Shown piece by piece: positions 53,059-63,459 of a DNA stretch of 64,000 bases (within the stretch, counting starts at the first letter, position 1; each line of letters starts with the position of its first letter). Source of the stretch: Flavobacterium arcticum (GTDB taxonomy: Bacteria; Bacteroidota; Bacteroidia; Flavobacteriales; Flavobacteriaceae); NCBI RefSeq assembly GCF_003344925.1, contig NZ_CP031188.1:2463001-2527000 (forward strand). The letters are read 5' to 3'. Both the position numbers and the translations under genes were made by a program. Below the pieces are notes generated by a model. It did no database searches and was not told the DNA's origin. It saw only the letters and a list, made by a program, of their open reading frames with translations.

Positions 53059-53628
53059 ATGAAAAAATTATTTATACTATTTCTAATAGCTGTAAGTACT
53101 GCTACTATGGCTCAAACAGATTGTAACTATACTGTTGAAAACACAGAGGATGGTAATGAGCTAAAAACTACAGAAGATTACATGATGTATGAAAAAGTAT
53201 TTGGCGGTAGTTCGCAATTCATTTTCTTTTCACTTACCAATAGTGGTGGCACTCCGTTATTAAATTTTCAACTTTTATCAAAAAGTAAAGATTTCCCTCA
53301 ATTATATTGCCTTGATAAAACGTCCAAAATACACATCCAATTAACTAACGGTAACGTAGTAACTTTAATAAATGCTCTCGATAATCAATGCGCAGGACTT
53401 GTATATGATAACTCCGAAAAAAACAATATAAGGATACTTTCAAGTACTTTTCTATTCACAAAAGGCTCGTTAGAAGAATTAGAAAAATCGACAATAACAT
53501 TTATAAGAGTAAAATATACCACAGAAACCGTAGACTATCCGATTCGAAGAGAATTGAATAGCGAAACGATGAAAAAACAATATTTTCCCGAAAAATATTT
53601 TATAAATTACCTAAAGTGCATGCAATAA
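53059..53628 (+). CDS. Secreted protein of unknown function
   Basis: 189 residues with a clear signal peptide (MKKLFILFLIAVSTATMAQ). The mature part has Cys residues at about 22, 95, 114 and 187, a beta-rich middle (FIFFSLTNSGGTPLLNFQL) and a basic C-terminus. No family is recognised. It is 4 bp behind the THUMP-like methyltransferase gene and likely co-transcribed, though the functional link is unclear. Confidence 0.6.
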   Translation: MKKLFILFLIAVSTATMAQTDCNYTVENTEDGNELKTTEDYMMYEKVFGGSSQFIFFSLTNSGGTPLLNFQLLSKSKDFPQLYCLDKTSKIHIQLTNGNVVTLINALDNQCAGLVYDNSEKNNIRILSSTFLFTKGSLEELEKSTITFIRVKYTTETVDYPIRRELNSETMKKQYFPEKYFINYLKCMQ

Positions 53629-54184: not shown

Positions 54185-54952
54185 ATGAACAAAGTTCTAA
54201 TTTTATTTTTTTTAATATTCTTAATTGGTTGTTCTAATAAACCAAAATCACTGGATAATGGGCTTACTAAAAAAGCTTCTAAAATTACTGAGTACATAAT
54301 CAATGTAAAAAAAGATTCTTTAGGCAACGAGATTAAGGATACTCTATCAATTATCGAAAAAAAGTATAATGGTAATAATCAAATAATTAATAGAGTTGAG
54401 CAATATTTATACTCTAACGAAAGTATGCAGATCAAATACGATTATAATGAAAATGAAAAGCTTAGAAGAGAAATCGTAAAACTTTCAAACGATAGCACGA
54501 GTATTATAGTTAATTACTTCTACAAAGACACTTTACTTCTTAAAACGCTTTCAGAAACTAAAAACAATGCATTTTACTATAAACAAATTGGAAGGTATAA
54601 ATATAATACTGAAAACACTTTAAAACAATTGTCTTTATTCCAATATTTTATAGATGTAGAGTCTAATGACACTATTGCAAAGACAATTGAAGTTAATAAC
54701 TATGATAAGAAGAAACTTTTAACAAAATCTATATTATCGAACTTTACAGAACCTGAAAAAAGTAGGACAACCAAATATGAATATGATTCTAGAACTTTAA
54801 TAAAAACAAGAGAATTTAATAGTAAAGATTCGTTGATTTTAGAAACAGTTTACAAATATGAATTTGATGAGTTTAAAAATTGGATTAGAAAAGAAGCATT
54901 TGAAAATGATATATTAAATTATATTAATACGAGGAAAATAGAGTATAAATAA
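54185..54952 (+). CDS. Lipoprotein with YD-repeat-like beta segments
   Basis: 255 residues. The lipoprotein signal MNKVLILFFLIFLIGC has a lipobox LIGC. The rest alternates strands of the type 'K-Y-E-Y-D-x-x' (TKYEYDSRTLIKTREF, TVYKYEFDEFKNWIRKEAF), which resembles the YD/RHS-like repeats in many Bacteroidota secreted proteins, without any enzyme motif. Function unknown. An inverted repeat (ATACAT-6-ATGTAT at 54126-54143) lies upstream; its meaning is not known. Confidence 0.6.
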   Translation: MNKVLILFFLIFLIGCSNKPKSLDNGLTKKASKITEYIINVKKDSLGNEIKDTLSIIEKKYNGNNQIINRVEQYLYSNESMQIKYDYNENEKLRREIVKLSNDSTSIIVNYFYKDTLLLKTLSETKNNAFYYKQIGRYKYNTENTLKQLSLFQYFIDVESNDTIAKTIEVNNYDKKKLLTKSILSNFTEPEKSRTTKYEYDSRTLIKTREFNSKDSLILETVYKYEFDEFKNWIRKEAFENDILNYINTRKIEYK

Positions 54953-55247: not shown

Positions 55248-58200
55248 ATGAGAAAAATTTCATACTTATTCGCCTTATTATTTTCTCTCACCGCCATTGC
55301 TCAAGACTATACTGAACAATGGGAAAAAGTACTAGAATATGAAACCTACGGCAGGGTTAAACCTGCCAATGAAGAAGTAGAAAAAATATATGCTTTAGCC
55401 AAAAAAGACAAAAACGAACCACAAATTATAAAGACTTTCTTTTTCCTTTCACGGTATTCACTTGCATTGGAAGAAGAAGCGCATACAAAAATATTAAGCC
55501 GATTAAAGACGGAAAATAAAAATGCTTCAGTCCCTACAAAAGCACTTTTAGAAAGTATTTATGCTGAATTATTACAAAATATTTACAATAAACATTCATA
55601 CGATATACGCAGAAGATCAATAATAGATACCCCTACCCTTAAAAATATTGGTGAATGGGGAGGAAAAAATTATTTAACTGAAATAGACAGTGCAAGCCAA
55701 AGGAGTATATCTGATTGGGAAGTTCTCTATAACACTCCGCTCAGCAACTATGCTGCAGTAATAGATATTAATAAAGTTTATAAAAACACAAATCGTTCAC
55801 TTTATGATTTTCTTGCAGAGCGCAGATTAGAATTTATTGTCAATAGAGGTTATTTTGAAAGTTATAATCTTAATAAAGAAGATCTTTTATTAAAGGATAC
55901 TCCCTACTTTTTAGAATATAAAATTCCCGACAGCATTAACGACCCGCTTAAAGAAAAGGTTGAGTTATATCAAAAACTGGAAGGGCTTTACAGTAGTAAA
56001 AATGATACTTATGCCTTGCAACGTGCTGTGCTAAGGAGGTTAGAGTTTATGAGTGAGAAACTCCGTTATGACGAAAGACAAAGTATTTATCTGGAGACCA
56101 TTAATCACTATACCAAAACATGGGATAAAAAAAGTCCTTTTCTTGAAGAAGTAAAGCTGAAACAAATACAGCTTTATGAAAAATTAGCCAATAAAAAAGA
56201 GAATAAAGAATATCATATAAAAGCAGTTGCGCTATGTAATGATATTATCGAAAACTCAAATCGTAAAGATATAATATCGGAGGTAAATGCAATAAAAGAA
56301 GCTATTATACAGTCTTTGGCAAAAATAACAACAGAAAAATATACAACACCGAATAAACCTATACTTGCAAAAGTTAATTACAAAAACACCGATTCAGTAA
56401 ACATAAAAATATACCGAGTATATTACGGTAATGATTTGGTTTTAGACCATCAATCAGGGAAATATATGGATATTGCAAATACGCAAAAACCCTTGTTTGA
56501 TAAAAATTATGTTTTACCCAATAATTATGGGTATTTTGAATATGAAACCGAAATTATACTTCCGTCACTCAGTAATGGTGTATATCTGGCTTCTATTGAG
56601 CCCATCGATAATAGTGAATTATCTGATGGAAAAAAATCATTTTTCATACTACAAACAACAGATGTAGCGCTATTAGAAGAAAGTTATTATAATACTTATA
56701 CTGTTGTAAACAGAGTAAACGGTAAGCCTATAAAAAGAGCGAAAATAATTCATGATAATATAACTACCTATACAGATAGGAACGGAAAAGCAAATATAAC
56801 CACAAAAGAATATGGGAATCAAGCTATCACTGTTACTTATAGTAAAGATACGCTTAATGCGAACGGATATTTATACACCTATAACAATGAGCTGGCTACT
56901 ACTAAAAATACCGAAAGTTCATATGCTACTACACAAATATATTTGGACAGAGCAATATACAGACCTGGGCAAACGGTTTATTTTAAAGGTATAGTTACAG
57001 AAGAAATAACAAAATCTAATGGTCAAAAATCAGCTAGCGTTGTCCCTGATATTTACATAAATATTAAAATTGAAGATAATGACTATGAGATAATGAAAAC
57101 AATGCGAATCAAAACAAATGAATTTGGTTCTTTTACAAGTGAATTTACCATACCACGCAATGTAATGACAGGTAGGTTCACCATAAATATATTAGAAGAT
57201 TATGATTATGAAGAAGATGAGCATCCGTTTTGGGATAAAGAAAATTTTTATTTTGAAGAGACTAGTGCCTCATTTCAAGTTGAAGAATACAAACGTCCCA
57301 CTTTCGAAGCTTCTTTTACTCCCTTTACAGATGTTGTAAAAATAAACGACAGTATTACTGTAAAAGGTAGCGCTAATGCTCTTAATGGCTCTCCCCTTAT
57401 TGGCGCAAAAGTCCGTTACAATATTTCAAGAACATCATACGGCTATTATAACTATCATTATAATAATAAGGATTATATAACTAAAGGTGAAGTGATTACA
57501 GATAGTAATGGAAATTTCAAGATTCCCTTCGTCGCTGTGGTTGATACTGCAATAGCCCCTGAAAAGCTACCAGTATTTACTTTTAGTATTAATTGCGAAG
57601 TGACTGATATTACAGGTGAGACACACGAATGTGATACTCGGGTATATGTAGGATATCATTCATTACAGTTAAATGTTACGAGTCCTGTTATGCTTAACTC
57701 TACAAGTGAAGAGGCTTCTATAATGATAAAAACCGAAAACCTTAATAATCAATTTGTACCTGCTGAGTGTGACGTTAAAATATACAAACTAACCAATAAC
57801 AACAGTAAAAGGATATTGCACCAAAGACCTTGGAGTGAGCCTGAAATACAGGCAATACCCGAATCAGAATTTATAGAAAAGTTTCCGCATACTACTTATA
57901 AAGAAGTTACCCGTAATGATTTACCCAGAGAAAAAATGGTTTTTTCGCGTACACTAATAACCAAAGAAAATGAGAAACTTAGCATAGAAAACTATAAAGA
58001 CTGGGAAACAGGAGAATATGAGCTATACGTTACTACCAAAGATTCATCGGGAAATATTTTTGAAGAAAAAACATATTTCAGCTTCAAGAAAGAAGAAGAT
58101 TTATCAGGACCATATGCAATGCTGTATGAAATTAAAAATACTGACTATAATAAAGACGGTTATGTGGCTTTACAGCTATATACTGCACTGCCCGAACTTT

Positions 58201-61200
58201 ATGTAAATATTAATACAATGTACAACAATGGGATTTTTTATACCGAATGGCATAAATTAACCAAAGGAAACAAAATAATTAAAATACCTATCAATAAAAA
58301 GTGGAAGGGAGAAGTTAGTTTATTTATAGAGTATATATGGGAAAATGAGTACGAAAAGAAAAAATTCGATATAAAAATTAATCCTGCTATAGAACCTATA
58401 ACTTTTCATACCAACGTAATAAATAACAAGTTGTTACCCGGTAAAAAAGAAACTTGGTCTTTTACACTTAAAAACAGTAATGAGCTGCCTGCCGAAGTAT
58501 TAGCCTCTATGTATGATGCATCGTTAGATGAGTTTGAATACAGCTATTGGAACAGTTCTTTAATTAATTACCGCTCAAATAATTATATCCCATACAAAAC
58601 ACTAAGCACTACAGGACTGGTAAGAACAAACTACATCTATTCTTATTTACCCAGAATAAATATAATAAAACCTCTTGATTTTATTAAAACATACGGTTTA
58701 GATATTAATAATAAAGAAATTGACTTCTATACTCAGGGAATTAAAAATGAAAAGGAGGTAATGAGTAACGGAGGCTTTATCCTTACAGGTACAGTTAGTG
58801 ATAAAATAGGTCCGTTACCCAGTGCCTCTGTTACTGTAAAGGGTACATTACGAAATGTACGAACCGATATAGATGGCAATTTTAGCATCCCTGTTGTTAT
58901 GGGAGAAACGTTAAATTTTGACTATGTTAGTTTTAACACTGTTACAATGGTAGTAAATAGCACTATGCCCGTAAACATAATACTGGAAGGTCAAGAACTC
59001 GAAATGGTAATAATTGATAAATACACATCTACCGTACAAAGATCAACCACTGCTGCTATAACAACAATATCCGTAGAAGACAGAGCTAATGCAAGTATAT
59101 TACAAAGTCTGCAAGGGCAAGTAGCTGGGCTTAATATTGGTACAGGTAGCGGTCAACCCGGAGCAGACAGTACTATTATACTAAGAGGAGTAGGCTCTAT
59201 AGATGGAAATGTTCAACCTTTATTTGTAGTAGATGGTATTCCGGTTGACGAAGATGGCTTTAGAAGTATCAGTGTAAATGATATAGGGTCATATAGTATT
59301 TTAAAAGATGCTGCTGCAACGTCTATATACGGTAACCGTGGAGCAAATGGTGTTATTATTATCACCACCTTAAAAGGTATGATAGAGCAATTAGACGAAT
59401 TAGGAAAAGTAGAGTCCCGTAAAAATTTACAGGAAACTGCTTTCTTTTACCCACAAATCCTGACCGACAAAGAAGGAAACTTCAATTTTACATTTACCTC
59501 GCCGGAGGCATTAACAAGCTGGAACTTTAGGCTTCTTGCACACAATAAAAAAGCACAATCAGGTTACTTTCAATATTTAGCATTAACACAAAAAGACCTA
59601 ATGATTATGCCGAATATGCCACGTTTTCTGAGAGAAGGAGATGAGATAACCATTACGGCAAAAGTTACCAATATGACAGCAGAAGTTAAAATAGGAAATG
59701 CTATGCTGCAACTGTATGATGCCGCAACCATGCAACCCATAGATGAAGAAGCATTGCAAACAGCGCAAGTACAACCTTTCAATTTGGGCGTTAAAGCAAA
59801 CACGACTGTAAGCTGGAAAATAAAAGTACCATTAGGATTACAAGGAGTACAATATAAAGTTGTTGCAAAATCGGGTGATTTTTCTGATGGAGAAGAAAGT
59901 ATCTTACCTGTATTTAGCAACAGAACATTGGTAACAGAGAGTATTCCGCTATGGGTAAAAGGTAACACAGTTAAAGAATATACACTCGAAAACCTTAAAA
60001 ACAATACTTCTTCTACCCTTGTACATCATGGCATAACATTAGAATATACCTCTAACCCAGCATGGATAGCTTTACAGTCACTTCCCTACCTCATGGAGTT
60101 TGAACATGAGTGTTCTGAGCAACTATTTTCGCGTTATTATGCCAATGCTATTGCTACACATATACTGGAAAGCAACCCTAAAATTGCCGAAGTATTTGGG
60201 TCATGGCGAAAAAGTGATAAATCACTATCTAAGCTAGAGCAAAATGAAGAATTAAAATCTATCATTATGGCTGAATCACCTTGGATGCTTGACAACCAAA
60301 GTGATGAAGAAAGAAAAAACAGAATTGCATTACTTTTTGAGCTGGATAAAATGAAAACAGCGTTAAAAATTAATTTAAATAAACTTGATAACAGACAAAT
60401 GGCTTCTGGGGGTTATGCTTGGTTTGAAGGCGGAAATGAAAACGAATATATTACTCGCCATATTATGGCAGGATTAGGACACATTAATAAACTGGGGATA
60501 GTTGATGAAGAAAACACTATTGACGGTATTACAAAAACAGGAGTTAAATTTATAGATGATTTATTCTGGAAAAGGTATAAAGAGAGAGAAAGGGATAAGA
60601 ATAAATCAAAATATAGCTTTATAGATTCTGCTAAAGAGCTTCATTATCATTATGCCCGTAGCTTTTACTTAGAGCAGTACCCTATGAATGATTCTCTTAA
60701 AAAAACTACACAAAAACATCTTGACATTTATAAAAAGAACTGGCTGAATTATTCCCTTTATGAAAAAGGACTTACAGCCCTTGTATTGCAACGCTATGGT
60801 GAAGAAGAAACCGCAAAGATAATAGTACAAAGCCTTAGAGATACCTCAGCCAATAATGACGAAAACGGAATGTATTGGCTGAGTAATAAAGCAGGCTGGC
60901 ATTGGTATAATTCACCTATAGAAACTCAGGCTTTACTGATAGAAGCATTTACCGAAATAGATAATGATACCAAAGCAGTAGATGGTATGAAGGTGTGGCT
61001 TATTAAAAACAAACAAAACAAAAACTGGCCTACTACCAAAAGTACTACTGAGGCTGTATATGCACTTATGATGACAGGTAGTGACTGGTTATCGGTTAAA
61101 GATAGTACAACCATAACATTAGGCAGCACTACTACATTCAATAAAAAAATGCAAGAAAATGAAAAAGAAGCAGGAACGGGCTATATAAAAATGCATTGGC

Positions 61201-61751
61201 AAGGTAGCGAAGTTACTAAAGATATGGCAGCACTTACTATTGAAAATAAAACCGAAGTACCAGGTTATGGAGGTTTATACTGGCAATATTTTGAAGATGC
61301 AGACAAAGTTAAAACAGTCCAAAAAGGTATAATGAACCTATCGAGAGAATTGTTTGTTAAAGTAACTACTACCAATGGCGTTAAACTTAAAAAAGTAACT
61401 GATGACAACCCTATGAAAATAGGTGATAAAGTAACTATGCGTTTGGTTTTAGATATAAAAGAGGATATGGAATATGTGCATCTTAAAGATGTTCGTGCGG
61501 CAGCTTTTGAGCCCGTTGATGTATTGTCTAAATATGAATATAAAGACGGACTAGGATACTATCGTAGTACTCGCGATGCTGCTACACATTTCTTTTTTGA
61601 TCGTATTAATAAGGGAACTTATGTATTAGAATATGATGTAAGGGTAAACAATATAGGAGAGTTTTCTAATGGTATAAGCACGATACAAAGTATGTATGCC
61701 CCTGAGTTTTCAGGACACTCCGAAGGAATAAGAGTAAAAACAGAAGAGTAA
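55248..61751 (+). CDS. Alpha-2-macroglobulin family protein with embedded SusC-like regulatory and TonB-plug domains
   Basis: 2167 residues. The signal peptide ends LTAIAQ; no lipobox is seen, unlike E. coli A2M. A helical N-terminus (about 20-350) precedes MG-type domains: MG1-like near 364, MG2 near 559-660 (YLDRAIYRPGQTVYFKG), MG3/4 near 673-800, and a bait-side domain ending near 1110 (PGKKETWSFTLKN, MYDASLDEFEYSYW). About 1177-1255 is a carboxypeptidase-regulatory domain (LTGTVSDKIGPLPSASVTVKG, DGNFSIPV). About 1262-1375 is a TonB-receptor plug (GQVAGLNIGTGSGQPG, PLFVVDGIPVDEDGF, ILKDAAATSIYGNRGANG). The A2M domain resumes at about 1392 (ETAFFYPQILTDKEGNF). The thioester motif C1622-S-E-Q1625 is intact. 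No beta-barrel follows the plug and no pbpC is adjacent. Probably a periplasmic protease trap; the role of the plug is unknown. Confidence 0.9.
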   Translation: MRKISYLFALLFSLTAIAQDYTEQWEKVLEYETYGRVKPANEEVEKIYALAKKDKNEPQIIKTFFFLSRYSLALEEEAHTKILSRLKTENKNASVPTKALLESIYAELLQNIYNKHSYDIRRRSIIDTPTLKNIGEWGGKNYLTEIDSASQRSISDWEVLYNTPLSNYAAVIDINKVYKNTNRSLYDFLAERRLEFIVNRGYFESYNLNKEDLLLKDTPYFLEYKIPDSINDPLKEKVELYQKLEGLYSSKNDTYALQRAVLRRLEFMSEKLRYDERQSIYLETINHYTKTWDKKSPFLEEVKLKQIQLYEKLANKKENKEYHIKAVALCNDIIENSNRKDIISEVNAIKEAIIQSLAKITTEKYTTPNKPILAKVNYKNTDSVNIKIYRVYYGNDLVLDHQSGKYMDIANTQKPLFDKNYVLPNNYGYFEYETEIILPSLSNGVYLASIEPIDNSELSDGKKSFFILQTTDVALLEESYYNTYTVVNRVNGKPIKRAKIIHDNITTYTDRNGKANITTKEYGNQAITVTYSKDTLNANGYLYTYNNELATTKNTESSYATTQIYLDRAIYRPGQTVYFKGIVTEEITKSNGQKSASVVPDIYINIKIEDNDYEIMKTMRIKTNEFGSFTSEFTIPRNVMTGRFTINILEDYDYEEDEHPFWDKENFYFEETSASFQVEEYKRPTFEASFTPFTDVVKINDSITVKGSANALNGSPLIGAKVRYNISRTSYGYYNYHYNNKDYITKGEVITDSNGNFKIPFVAVVDTAIAPEKLPVFTFSINCEVTDITGETHECDTRVYVGYHSLQLNVTSPVMLNSTSEEASIMIKTENLNNQFVPAECDVKIYKLTNNNSKRILHQRPWSEPEIQAIPESEFIEKFPHTTYKEVTRNDLPREKMVFSRTLITKENEKLSIENYKDWETGEYELYVTTKDSSGNIFEEKTYFSFKKEEDLSGPYAMLYEIKNTDYNKDGYVALQLYTALPELYVNINTMYNNGIFYTEWHKLTKGNKIIKIPINKKWKGEVSLFIEYIWENEYEKKKFDIKINPAIEPITFHTNVINNKLLPGKKETWSFTLKNSNELPAEVLASMYDASLDEFEYSYWNSSLINYRSNNYIPYKTLSTTGLVRTNYIYSYLPRINIIKPLDFIKTYGLDINNKEIDFYTQGIKNEKEVMSNGGFILTGTVSDKIGPLPSASVTVKGTLRNVRTDIDGNFSIPVVMGETLNFDYVSFNTVTMVVNSTMPVNIILEGQELEMVIIDKYTSTVQRSTTAAITTISVEDRANASILQSLQGQVAGLNIGTGSGQPGADSTIILRGVGSIDGNVQPLFVVDGIPVDEDGFRSISVNDIGSYSILKDAAATSIYGNRGANGVIIITTLKGMIEQLDELGKVESRKNLQETAFFYPQILTDKEGNFNFTFTSPEALTSWNFRLLAHNKKAQSGYFQYLALTQKDLMIMPNMPRFLREGDEITITAKVTNMTAEVKIGNAMLQLYDAATMQPIDEEALQTAQVQPFNLGVKANTTVSWKIKVPLGLQGVQYKVVAKSGDFSDGEESILPVFSNRTLVTESIPLWVKGNTVKEYTLENLKNNTSSTLVHHGITLEYTSNPAWIALQSLPYLMEFEHECSEQLFSRYYANAIATHILESNPKIAEVFGSWRKSDKSLSKLEQNEELKSIIMAESPWMLDNQSDEERKNRIALLFELDKMKTALKINLNKLDNRQMASGGYAWFEGGNENEYITRHIMAGLGHINKLGIVDEENTIDGITKTGVKFIDDLFWKRYKERERDKNKSKYSFIDSAKELHYHYARSFYLEQYPMNDSLKKTTQKHLDIYKKNWLNYSLYEKGLTALVLQRYGEEETAKIIVQSLRDTSANNDENGMYWLSNKAGWHWYNSPIETQALLIEAFTEIDNDTKAVDGMKVWLIKNKQNKNWPTTKSTTEAVYALMMTGSDWLSVKDSTTITLGSTTTFNKKMQENEKEAGTGYIKMHWQGSEVTKDMAALTIENKTEVPGYGGLYWQYFEDADKVKTVQKGIMNLSRELFVKVTTTNGVKLKKVTDDNPMKIGDKVTMRLVLDIKEDMEYVHLKDVRAAAFEPVDVLSKYEYKDGLGYYRSTRDAATHFFFDRINKGTYVLEYDVRVNNIGEFSNGISTIQSMYAPEFSGHSEGIRVKTEE

Positions 61752-62037: not shown

Positions 62038-63459
62038 ATGAAAAACAACTCAAATGGGGTAACCGGCACTCTGGAAGCTCAACTTATTATTGATTTAACA
62101 CAAACTGATTTACCCATAGGTACACCTGTTTATATTTATATTGTAGGCTTAGTAACTTCAACATTTTATTACATCGATAATAATGGAAATCCGAAAATAA
62201 TGAGCACTTCAGATAATACCATACCTGCACAAACATTTCCGGGTATGGATAAACTTAGTTCTGCTGCACAAAATGCTATTGCTCCTAACTATCCTTTACA
62301 TTGGGCAGATTATAGTATACCTGTACAAGTAGGTGGTAACTTAATTTTAAACTTAGGAAATATAAATACCACTACCATCCCAGGATTAGGGACGGGCACG
62401 TCGGCATTTAGTGGTAGGGTATATTTTTCAGTAGGAGTTCCAAAATTACCTTTCACAATTCAAAATAGCGGTTATACTGCACCCGTTTATGGAAATGGTT
62501 CAGGAGTTACAGGTTCTTTAACGCTGTATGATTGGATCGAATTTTCATATGATAGTGAAGGTAACTTTAACGGTAACACCACGCAAGTAAATCAATTTGG
62601 GTTTCCACTAACCCTTACTGGGACAGCGGTTGGAAAAGCCCCTTACCCAACGCAAGGTGCTTTAAATACATCTCGAAAAACAATATTAAGGACTATTGCC
62701 ACAGCAAATGCACCATTTGGGAATAACGGAGCAGTTGTGCCTGTAACAACTAATGCAGCTCCAGCTTACCCTGATAATATTAATTATTTAAGAGCTATAT
62801 CTCCAGTAACTATAAGTGGTGCAAATACTTCAATGAATACTTATTTTGATGCCAATATTGCAACTGCTTACACTGCTTGGCAAACAACACCATTAGTTAC
62901 ACATGATCCATCCACAAAGTATTACACAGGAGTTGTTTTCCCTGTTAATGGTGCTACAATAGCAACACCTGCTAAATACCCAGCAGGTAGCCTTGCTTTT
63001 TATAAAGGAAACTATGCCACAATGCAAGAATTAGCCACAGCTCTCAGTTCTAATACTCCGCCAAGTGTAGCATTTTTCTTAACAGGTTCTACTAATAATA
63101 TTATTACATCCAATGATATTTGGCAATGTGCAAATTCATTAGCAAGCGGAGATTCTGCTCAAAAAAATGTAGGCAAAATGATTGGTGCTGCATTTAATAG
63201 AGGGGTTGTAGTAAGTACAGATGGTACAGTAATTACAAACCTTAATGATAGTACCTGTTCAGGCTTAGTAAGTACTTTTTATTCAGCAGGAACAACATAT
63301 AACCAATGGGCAAAATGGTTTCATGAATACAACACTAACGGGTTAGCATATGGTTTCCCTTATGATGATGTATGTAACCAAAACCCATCTATACCGCCAT
63401 CGGGTAAAACATTAGTAGCAAGTTTTATACGTATTGCTTTAGGTAATTTTTTCAGTTAA
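62038..63459 (+). CDS. GH64/thaumatin-like (beta-1,3-glucanase-like) protein, no signal peptide
   Basis: 473 residues. The central segment FSGRVYFSVGVPKLPF, LYDWIEFSYD and NTTQVNQFGFPLTL matches the GH64/thaumatin-like superfamily of laminaripentaose-producing beta-1,3-glucanases. Glu168 aligns with the family's catalytic Glu. The usual Asp of the TQVD-x-FG motif is Asn185 here, which may reduce or abolish hydrolysis. The C-terminal part has IWQCANSLASGD, MIGAAFNRGV and the terminal GYxPFDD-like GFPYDDV. The start at 62038 is fixed by an in-frame stop at 62023; no signal peptide, lipobox or sorting domain exists. It has its own terminator. How or whether it is exported is unknown. Confidence 0.8.
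   Translation: MKNNSNGVTGTLEAQLIIDLTQTDLPIGTPVYIYIVGLVTSTFYYIDNNGNPKIMSTSDNTIPAQTFPGMDKLSSAAQNAIAPNYPLHWADYSIPVQVGGNLILNLGNINTTTIPGLGTGTSAFSGRVYFSVGVPKLPFTIQNSGYTAPVYGNGSGVTGSLTLYDWIEFSYDSEGNFNGNTTQVNQFGFPLTLTGTAVGKAPYPTQGALNTSRKTILRTIATANAPFGNNGAVVPVTTNAAPAYPDNINYLRAISPVTISGANTSMNTYFDANIATAYTAWQTTPLVTHDPSTKYYTGVVFPVNGATIATPAKYPAGSLAFYKGNYATMQELATALSSNTPPSVAFFLTGSTNNIITSNDIWQCANSLASGDSAQKNVGKMIGAAFNRGVVVSTDGTVITNLNDSTCSGLVSTFYSAGTTYNQWAKWFHEYNTNGLAYGFPYDDVCNQNPSIPPSGKTLVASFIRIALGNFFS

Follow-up and report, generated by a model that had tools for sequence, protein, structure and literature searches.

The window, i.e. the whole stretch of 64,000 nucleotides from Flavobacterium arcticum that was analysed, contains an alpha-2-macroglobulin (A2M) family gene made of a single uninterrupted ATG frame, in which the macroglobulin is interrupted by the front end of a SusC-type TonB-dependent transporter (Table 1). 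This much had been claimed in a preliminary description of the DNA, which placed a SusC-type carboxypeptidase-regulatory domain (CTD) and plug at 58769-59395, roughly residues 1174-1382, with no barrel after the plug. Pfam, NCBIfam and PDB matches now agree on this, and A2M domains follow the plug.

Table 1. Features of the A2M gene (nucleotide positions in the window, residues of the encoded protein)
Feature	Positions	Strand	Evidence
A2M family gene, 2167 aa	55248..61751	+	Single open frame, domains
Probable Sec signal peptide MRKISYLFALLFSLTAIAQ, residues 1-19, without lipobox cysteine	55248..55304	+	Read by eye
MG2 domain, residues 564-652	56937..57203	+	Pfam
Low-confidence, probably disordered stretch ahead of the module, residues 1095-1171	58530..58760	+	pLDDT, alignment
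SusC-type CTD (CarbopepD_reg_2), residues 1179-1252	58782..59003	+	Pfam, NCBIfam, PDB, pLDDT
Ton-box-like linker ELEMVIIDKYTSTVQRS	58995..59045	+	Sequence; pLDDT <50
SusC-type plug, residues 1265-1380, ending in KDAAATSIYGNRGANGVIIITTLKG, without barrel after it	59040..59387	+	Pfam, NCBIfam, PDB, pLDDT
PF00207 A2M domain, second half of the bait-bearing MG domain, residues 1397-1478	59436..59681	+	Pfam, profile alignment to L102
Thioester motif CSEQ, residues 1622-1625	60111..60122	+	Motif, alignment
bMG10 domain, residues 2031-2153	61338..61706	+	Pfam

Architecture of the gene

The domain scan that had been proposed called MG2, CarbopepD_reg_2 (the CTD), Plug, A2M (PF00207) and bMG10, each above its own gathering score, with the Plug match covering residues 1265-1369 (2.3e-12); A2M_BRD (PF07703) was not called in this Pfam scan. 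In NCBIfam, positions 3-209 of the 981 of TIGR04056 (SusC/RagA) match residues 1179-1380 with 194 bits, which is below the model's full-length cut-off of 368, and the SusC signature TIGR04057 is over its cut-off (50.6 vs 46.2). The 22-strand barrel is absent, the TIGR04056 match ending at position 209 of 981 with A2M domains coming next, and the module corresponds to the SusC region ahead of the barrel, which starts close to the mature N-terminus and runs to where the plug ends. The best PDB sequence matches, at about residues 1181-1381, are the SusC homologues 5t3r and 8aa4, and the module is therefore not a chance similarity. Both artefacts that the preliminary description had raised were dismissed: an assembly or sequencing error, or a split gene, is ruled out by orthologues in other genomes, which carry the module, and a chance likeness to an ordinary MG domain is ruled out by the Pfam, NCBIfam and PDB matches.

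With ECAM/YfhM (the A2M of E. coli) and SaA2M (type I), the window A2M has in common MG2, A2M and bMG10 domains, the CxEQ motif and the place of the bait slot, while about 200 more residues than in 5a42 precede the MG region that aligns (residue 436 vs 220). The thioester C1622-S-E-Q is where it had been reported, its C, E and Q being invariant across 15 aligned sequences, and CxEQ occurs in 194/194 sequences in which the thioester region was found (window included in both sets). The probable signal peptide, read by eye, suggests a periplasmic location. Unlike that of the ECAM type it has no lipobox, and lipoprotein anchoring to the inner membrane would thus not apply to the window A2M. By a crude regular expression the lipobox is absent in 191/191 sequences starting with M, window included, and this mode of anchoring may be an ECAM-type trait that does not necessarily define the family.

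Among the nearest ORFs, no SusD partner gene lies beside the A2M gene, the ORFs at 53059-53628 and 54185-54952 match no Pfam family, and the ORF directly downstream (62038-63459) is GH64 beta-1,3-glucanase-like.

The bait slot and its content across the A2M family

The insertion had been placed roughly where a bait region would sit, and profile alignments are more precise: the module lies in the bait slot, with one half of the bait-bearing MG domain on either side. The same genome encodes a second, ordinary YfhM-like A2M (L102:1811-7438, + strand), a 1876-residue frame with a CLEQ thioester and no plug. In hhalign, window VLASMYDASLDEF is aligned to TVAIVDDGLLDLTRF, the motif just ahead of the L102 bait, and the alignment resumes after the bait; L102 itself aligns across the bait region with Salmonella A2M (PDB 4u48). 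Together, these alignments put the SusC module in the bait slot, which is assigned by position only.

Among 15 class members, the slot (residues 1102-1390) has 0/289 invariant columns vs 41/170 in residues 1391-1560, and its first part (residues 1102-1178) has 0/77 invariant columns and a mean column identity of 0.34. In an AlphaFold2 model of residues 985-1560 (576 residues), which is of moderate quality (mean pLDDT 70, pTM 0.37), the CTD is predicted to be folded (pLDDT 90-95 per ten-residue block, residues 1175-1244), while an independent fold of the plug is less certain (pLDDT 46-82 by block). Stretches with pLDDT <50 are found at residues 1095-1140, 1157-1171 and 1251-1270, and 64/77 residues in 1095-1171 are below this value. 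A Foldseek search with the 576-residue model, which returned A2M and complement proteins among the first matches with a whole-model TM of at most 0.20 among the matches listed, adds little.

Plug-A2M fusions, whose existence in other Bacteroidota had been suspected, turned out to be common. A PF00207 search matched in 66 of 148 genomes from the phylum and in 45 of 60 from the family. It yielded 155 distinct matches apart from the window's own, 154 of which could be placed in a tree of the C-terminal part, by which classes were assigned. The window's class A (about 2000-2200 aa) has 58 members and class B (about 1510-1570 aa) has 6, leaving 91 in neither, including the unplaced sequence. Plugs, counted at 20 bits or more, are in the bait slot in 11/58 of class A, 5/6 of class B and 0/91 of the others. 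Slot content in class A is CTD and plug (8), plug only (3), CTD only (10), a plug remnant below 20 bits (2) or neither domain (35); in class B it is a plug (5) or neither (1). Outside the two classes, 90 of 91 sequences have neither domain; the exception is L132, truncated at a contig end and the one sequence missing from the tree, which has a CTD. Homologue lists add a group of about 1980 aa with CTD and plug at the same place (P0061, P0072). On these counts, fusion of SusC modules to A2M is common and slot content is fluid. Class B (P0050, P0087, P0107, P0110, L119, L223; about 1510-1580 aa with the homologue lists), which has a CFEQ thioester and a plug in the bait slot, has hosts that include Chryseobacterium, Psychroserpens and Flavobacterium. 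In genome G176, three class A genes (L138, L130, L140) lie within about 15 kb of contig C1 (at about 490239, 496541 and 504390), and their baits differ, with a CTD in two and neither domain in one, which suggests bait diversification.

Three roles had been guessed for the module, each of them a proposal: a bait cleaved by proteases, docking at an outer-membrane barrel and engagement of TonB. The first fits best, since the module is in the bait slot, evolves fast, has low-confidence flanks and belongs to a slot of variable content. That content (CTD and plug, plug only, CTD only or neither) also indicates that Ton box and plug are both dispensable.

The matched SusC and amino-acid matching within genomes

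The insert has the CTD, Ton-box region and plug of SusC/RagA (TIGR04056) proteins, from which it differs in being within a macroglobulin and in having neither a barrel nor a neighbouring SusD gene. Its identity to one SusC encoded in the same genome (L358; module G000:C1:193479-194087) is 73.8%, and to the A2M inserts compared it is at most 62.5%, unlike residues 1385-2167, which are 78% identical to those of the orthologue P0004 (Flavobacterium sp. MedPE-SWcel). At what we take to be the Ton box position of SusC, this same-genome SusC reads ELETVVVDKYRSTTQRS and the window A2M has the linker listed in Table 1. The linker is kept and resembles that of its own SusC (DKYTSTVQRS vs DKYRSTTQRS), as would be expected if TonB gripped it and pulled, so that the module unfolded and the trap was armed or released. 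We nevertheless regard such a TonB-driven trap as highly improbable: P0096 keeps the plug without a Ton-box region, P0154 keeps CTD and linker without a plug, and the other SusCs of the cell, which presumably use the same TonB system, do not match.

Downstream of the matched SusC gene, in its own genome, lie SusD and two lipoprotein-like genes, and SusD adjoins 8/8 related SusC loci with enough flank. That the matched SusC could be a subunit of the BAM complex was considered and dropped, since BamG, the BAM subunit in the outer membrane of F. johnsoniae, is FadL-like according to the excerpted text of a 2025 study (PMC12611786) and the best PDB matches of the matched SusC are SusC and RagA. 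The conserved SusC-SusD pair would suit a titration sensor, in which the module binds a chaperone or quality-control protease of SusC, unassembled SusC competes for this factor and A2M restrains the protease. This is very unlikely in our estimation, and we know of no such dedicated factor. High abundance of the transporter would also favour titration: the same study counts a SusCDE complex whose function is unknown as one of the two most abundant constituents of the F. johnsoniae outer membrane (PMC12611786). The SusC in question (Fjoh_0403) may or may not be an orthologue of the matched SusC.

The same module recurs in a third protein of the genome, which has 1015 residues (L359:615-3662, + strand) and has a cytoplasmic-looking N-terminus, a likely transmembrane segment (by eye), CTD, plug, VWA and YfbK_C, with a second plug match besides. 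Its plug is 94% identical in amino acids to that of its own SusC, with chance-level codon sharing. The gene is overlapped by an ECF sigma gene (L359:77-625, + strand), a similar sigma gene adjoins the VWA protein gene in 7/7 other genomes examined, and the VWA-YfbK_C protein is probably anti-sigma-like, judging from this arrangement. In another Flavobacteriaceae genome, a DUF4140/DUF4139 protein (L233:5077-6924, + strand) has a plug inside its DUF4139 span.

How the three proteins co-vary was analysed using quartets, i.e. two genomes each with SusC and a second host protein, whose sites were sorted into those favouring the same-genome pairing, the orthologue pairing or a third pairing, biologically meaningless and used as an internal control (counts are given in this order). 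For A2M and SusC in the window and 4 partner genomes (plug and upstream), amino acids gave 41/26/6 and synonymous third positions 14/40/16. In 4 genomes without Flavobacterium sp. MSM5, the counts were 73/39/11 and 20/56/17, the same-genome excess over the third pairing having p <5e-5 (0/20000) for amino acids and p 0.38 for synonymous sites in column-wise sign-flip tests, which were used because quartets share genomes and are not independent. For the VWA protein and SusC (plug only, 5 genomes), amino acids gave 56/10/5 (p 1e-4; 0.005 by sign-flip for the four closest genomes alone) and synonymous sites 18/104/35. Controls with other SusC paralogues gave 14/1104/16 against the matched SusC (32 orthologous pairs), 9/637/5 between paralogues (20 quartets), 7/385/6 against A2M (12 quartets) and 15/731/14 against the VWA protein (25 quartets); since these paralogues, at 39-50% identity to the matched SusC, are further apart than the tested pairs and offer fewer informative sites, what the controls show is an even balance of first and third pairings, not totals. 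The matching is therefore specific to one SusC, the other paralogues showing none.

In this close group, amino acids track the SusC of the same genome and synonymous sites gene orthology. Conversion would have dragged synonymous sites along, and their following orthology argues against recent conversion after the genomes split. Codon use concurs: identical plug residues use the same codon about as often as expected (.42 vs.41 in the window A2M,.39 vs.41 in the VWA protein), and codons are shared in 33/74 and 18/65 cells at matched sites, compared with 172/366 and 173/393 at other identical residues (A2M and VWA sets). Recent gene conversion as the sole cause is thus ruled out in the close group by synonymous sites and codon use, and protein-level matching without it is supported by the sequences for one Flavobacterium clade, with MSM5 as a possible exception. 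MSM5 has a plug change, ILSD, common to its A2M, SusC and VWA proteins (L182, L185, L218), against ILKD, VLKD, ILRD and the like in the other close genomes shown; its serine codon is AGT in two hosts and AGC in the third.

The matching is of uneven strength. The window A2M is not its strongest case, the closest plug to it in the set being that of the F. suaedae SusC (83% identity, vs 82% to its own SusC), and the quartet with the F. suaedae A2M favours orthology (1/7/1). Orthology is likewise favoured by A2M-VWA plug quartets in close genomes (5/14/1), and upstream of the plug the VWA sequences cluster by gene (16/48/5). A wider set consisted of 42 plug segments, picked by hand after being found by likeness to the window insert, with one SusC per genome. 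Its 23 non-SusC modules, from 20 genomes, resembled the partner in their genome more closely than they did the best module from the same host protein of any other genome in 17/22 testable cases (the raw tally is 18/23, but the DUF4139 module has no rival), and for 15/23 nothing in the set was closer than the same-genome partner, ties included. Summed identity to own SusC was 1631 vs a permuted mean of 1400 (sd 31), with 0/20000 permutations as high. Among these 42 segments, there was scarcely any matching, or none, in Winogradskyella, Psychroserpens, Ichthyenterobacterium and Nonlabens; a replicate attempted in Winogradskyella failed as a test, the A2M plugs found there being 95-97% identical from one species to the next. 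With all genomes included, A2M-SusC plug quartets gave 597/116/54 for amino acids and 187/184/105 for synonymous sites, and owing to this synonymous same-genome excess, matching and old recruitment are inseparable for distant genomes. Plug synonymous sites in four close genomes with MSM5 (25/30/13) also have some same-genome excess. Conversion or base composition thus plays a part where MSM5 or all genomes are included, and conversion may have acted in the MSM5 A2M and in distant genomes.

These exceptions bear on a rival explanation, that the bait is filler, i.e. that common SusC front ends were now and then recruited into a tolerant loop and that likeness comes from recruitment or conversion, not function. 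SusC front ends are the commonest modular sequence in these genomes, with 23 plug matches in the window genome and 22-87 in six relatives, inserts vary and decay across the A2M family, the MSM5 A2M shares codons with its own SusC above expectation (.53 vs.39), the all-genome synonymous excess of the same-genome over the third pairing (187 vs 105) points the same way, and old recruitment is possible for distant genomes. However, the close group without MSM5, in which synonymous sites follow orthology and amino acids follow genome, does not look like recruitment or conversion after the split, and the matching is confined to one SusC; we therefore consider filler unlikely.

Possible roles of the module

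What bacterial macroglobulins defend against is, to our knowledge, unsettled. According to the excerpted account of ECAM, its bait is largely disordered and cleavage causes a rearrangement that exposes the thioester (PMC4498604); by comparison with the same excerpt, the window bait is a SusC front-end module instead of a disordered loop. By analogy with ECAM and other A2Ms, cleavage within the window bait would spring the trap, and thioester formation and protease trapping are predicted from the sequence. The explanation that we favour, tentatively and at somewhat less than an even chance, is an integrated decoy, in which the bait imitates the periplasm-facing front end of the cell's own SusC, so that SusC's attacker springs the trap. 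A thioester protease trap in the periplasm would expose as bait an imitation of the CTD, Ton-box linker and plug of one own SusC; an agent attacking the SusC front end would also attack the bait, and cutting it would trigger the trap, with the thioester becoming exposed and the attacker being captured. Matching would then exist because one agent acts on both SusC and bait. The same module in the VWA protein, beside an ECF sigma factor, would be a parallel tripwire reporting to transcription. The larger proposal, a two-armed tripwire around one SusC, with trap and sigma-type sensor as look-alikes kept alike by selection without DNA exchange, we consider rather unlikely as a whole.

The integrated decoy explains where the module sits, the fluid slot content and the fast evolution, and why a single SusC is matched without DNA exchange. 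Against it, the trap does not need a SusC bait, since 35/58 class A members have neither domain, and known baits are disordered, whereas the CTD here is predicted to be folded. Similarity kept to a same-genome target, as a decoy should have, is apparent in one Flavobacterium clade only, with exceptions. Matching is also predicted by a dedicated chaperone or protease and by docking, in which the module pairs with the SusC front end (homotypically) or enters its barrel in trans, interface co-evolution giving the matching. Docking of this kind, like its extension that trap and VWA protein sit on SusC as guards, is decidedly unlikely in our view. It would account for the specificity for one SusC, and FhuA is reportedly reconstituted in vivo from separate plug and barrel; barrel entry alone would not lead one to expect the matching seen in the A2M CTD and linker (58/40/13, five genomes with MSM5). 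A precedent for docking comes from FoxA, whose signalling domain binds the anti-sigma factor FoxR and shields it from proteolysis, an STN domain of FoxR being named as required in the excerpted text (PMC11637429). The arrangement there, as far as this excerpt goes, likewise joins a sigma-pathway protein and the N-terminal part of a TonB-dependent receptor, yet it involves an STN signalling domain, whereas here a putative interaction would involve the CTD and plug, within a VWA-YfbK_C protein and an A2M.

That A2M proteins with plug domains exist is already known from domain calls and names in protein lists, and the host protein is of a known kind; what is new is the content of the bait and the amino-acid matching. 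A search of an open-licence library of papers (titles and abstract openings) found no functional account of an A2M with a SusC plug. The closest parallel to an integrated decoy is in plants, where a copy of what is presumed to be the target is incorporated into a defence protein, the NLR immune receptor, and retains its likeness. The differences are that the host here is a bacterial protease trap and that matching is known from sequence alone.

If the integrated decoy is true, a bait copying one transporter tells us which protein the trap guards, turning the defence question into one testable with defined substrates, and the TonB-plug annotations on other barrel-less proteins might acquire a role. 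Should matching without DNA exchange hold in more clades, it would be an unusual molecular co-evolution, and matching as such would offer a sequence-only route to decoy/target pairs in other bacteria. The two-armed tripwire, if true, would be a bacterial integrated-decoy system combined with protein-level concerted evolution of otherwise unrelated proteins.
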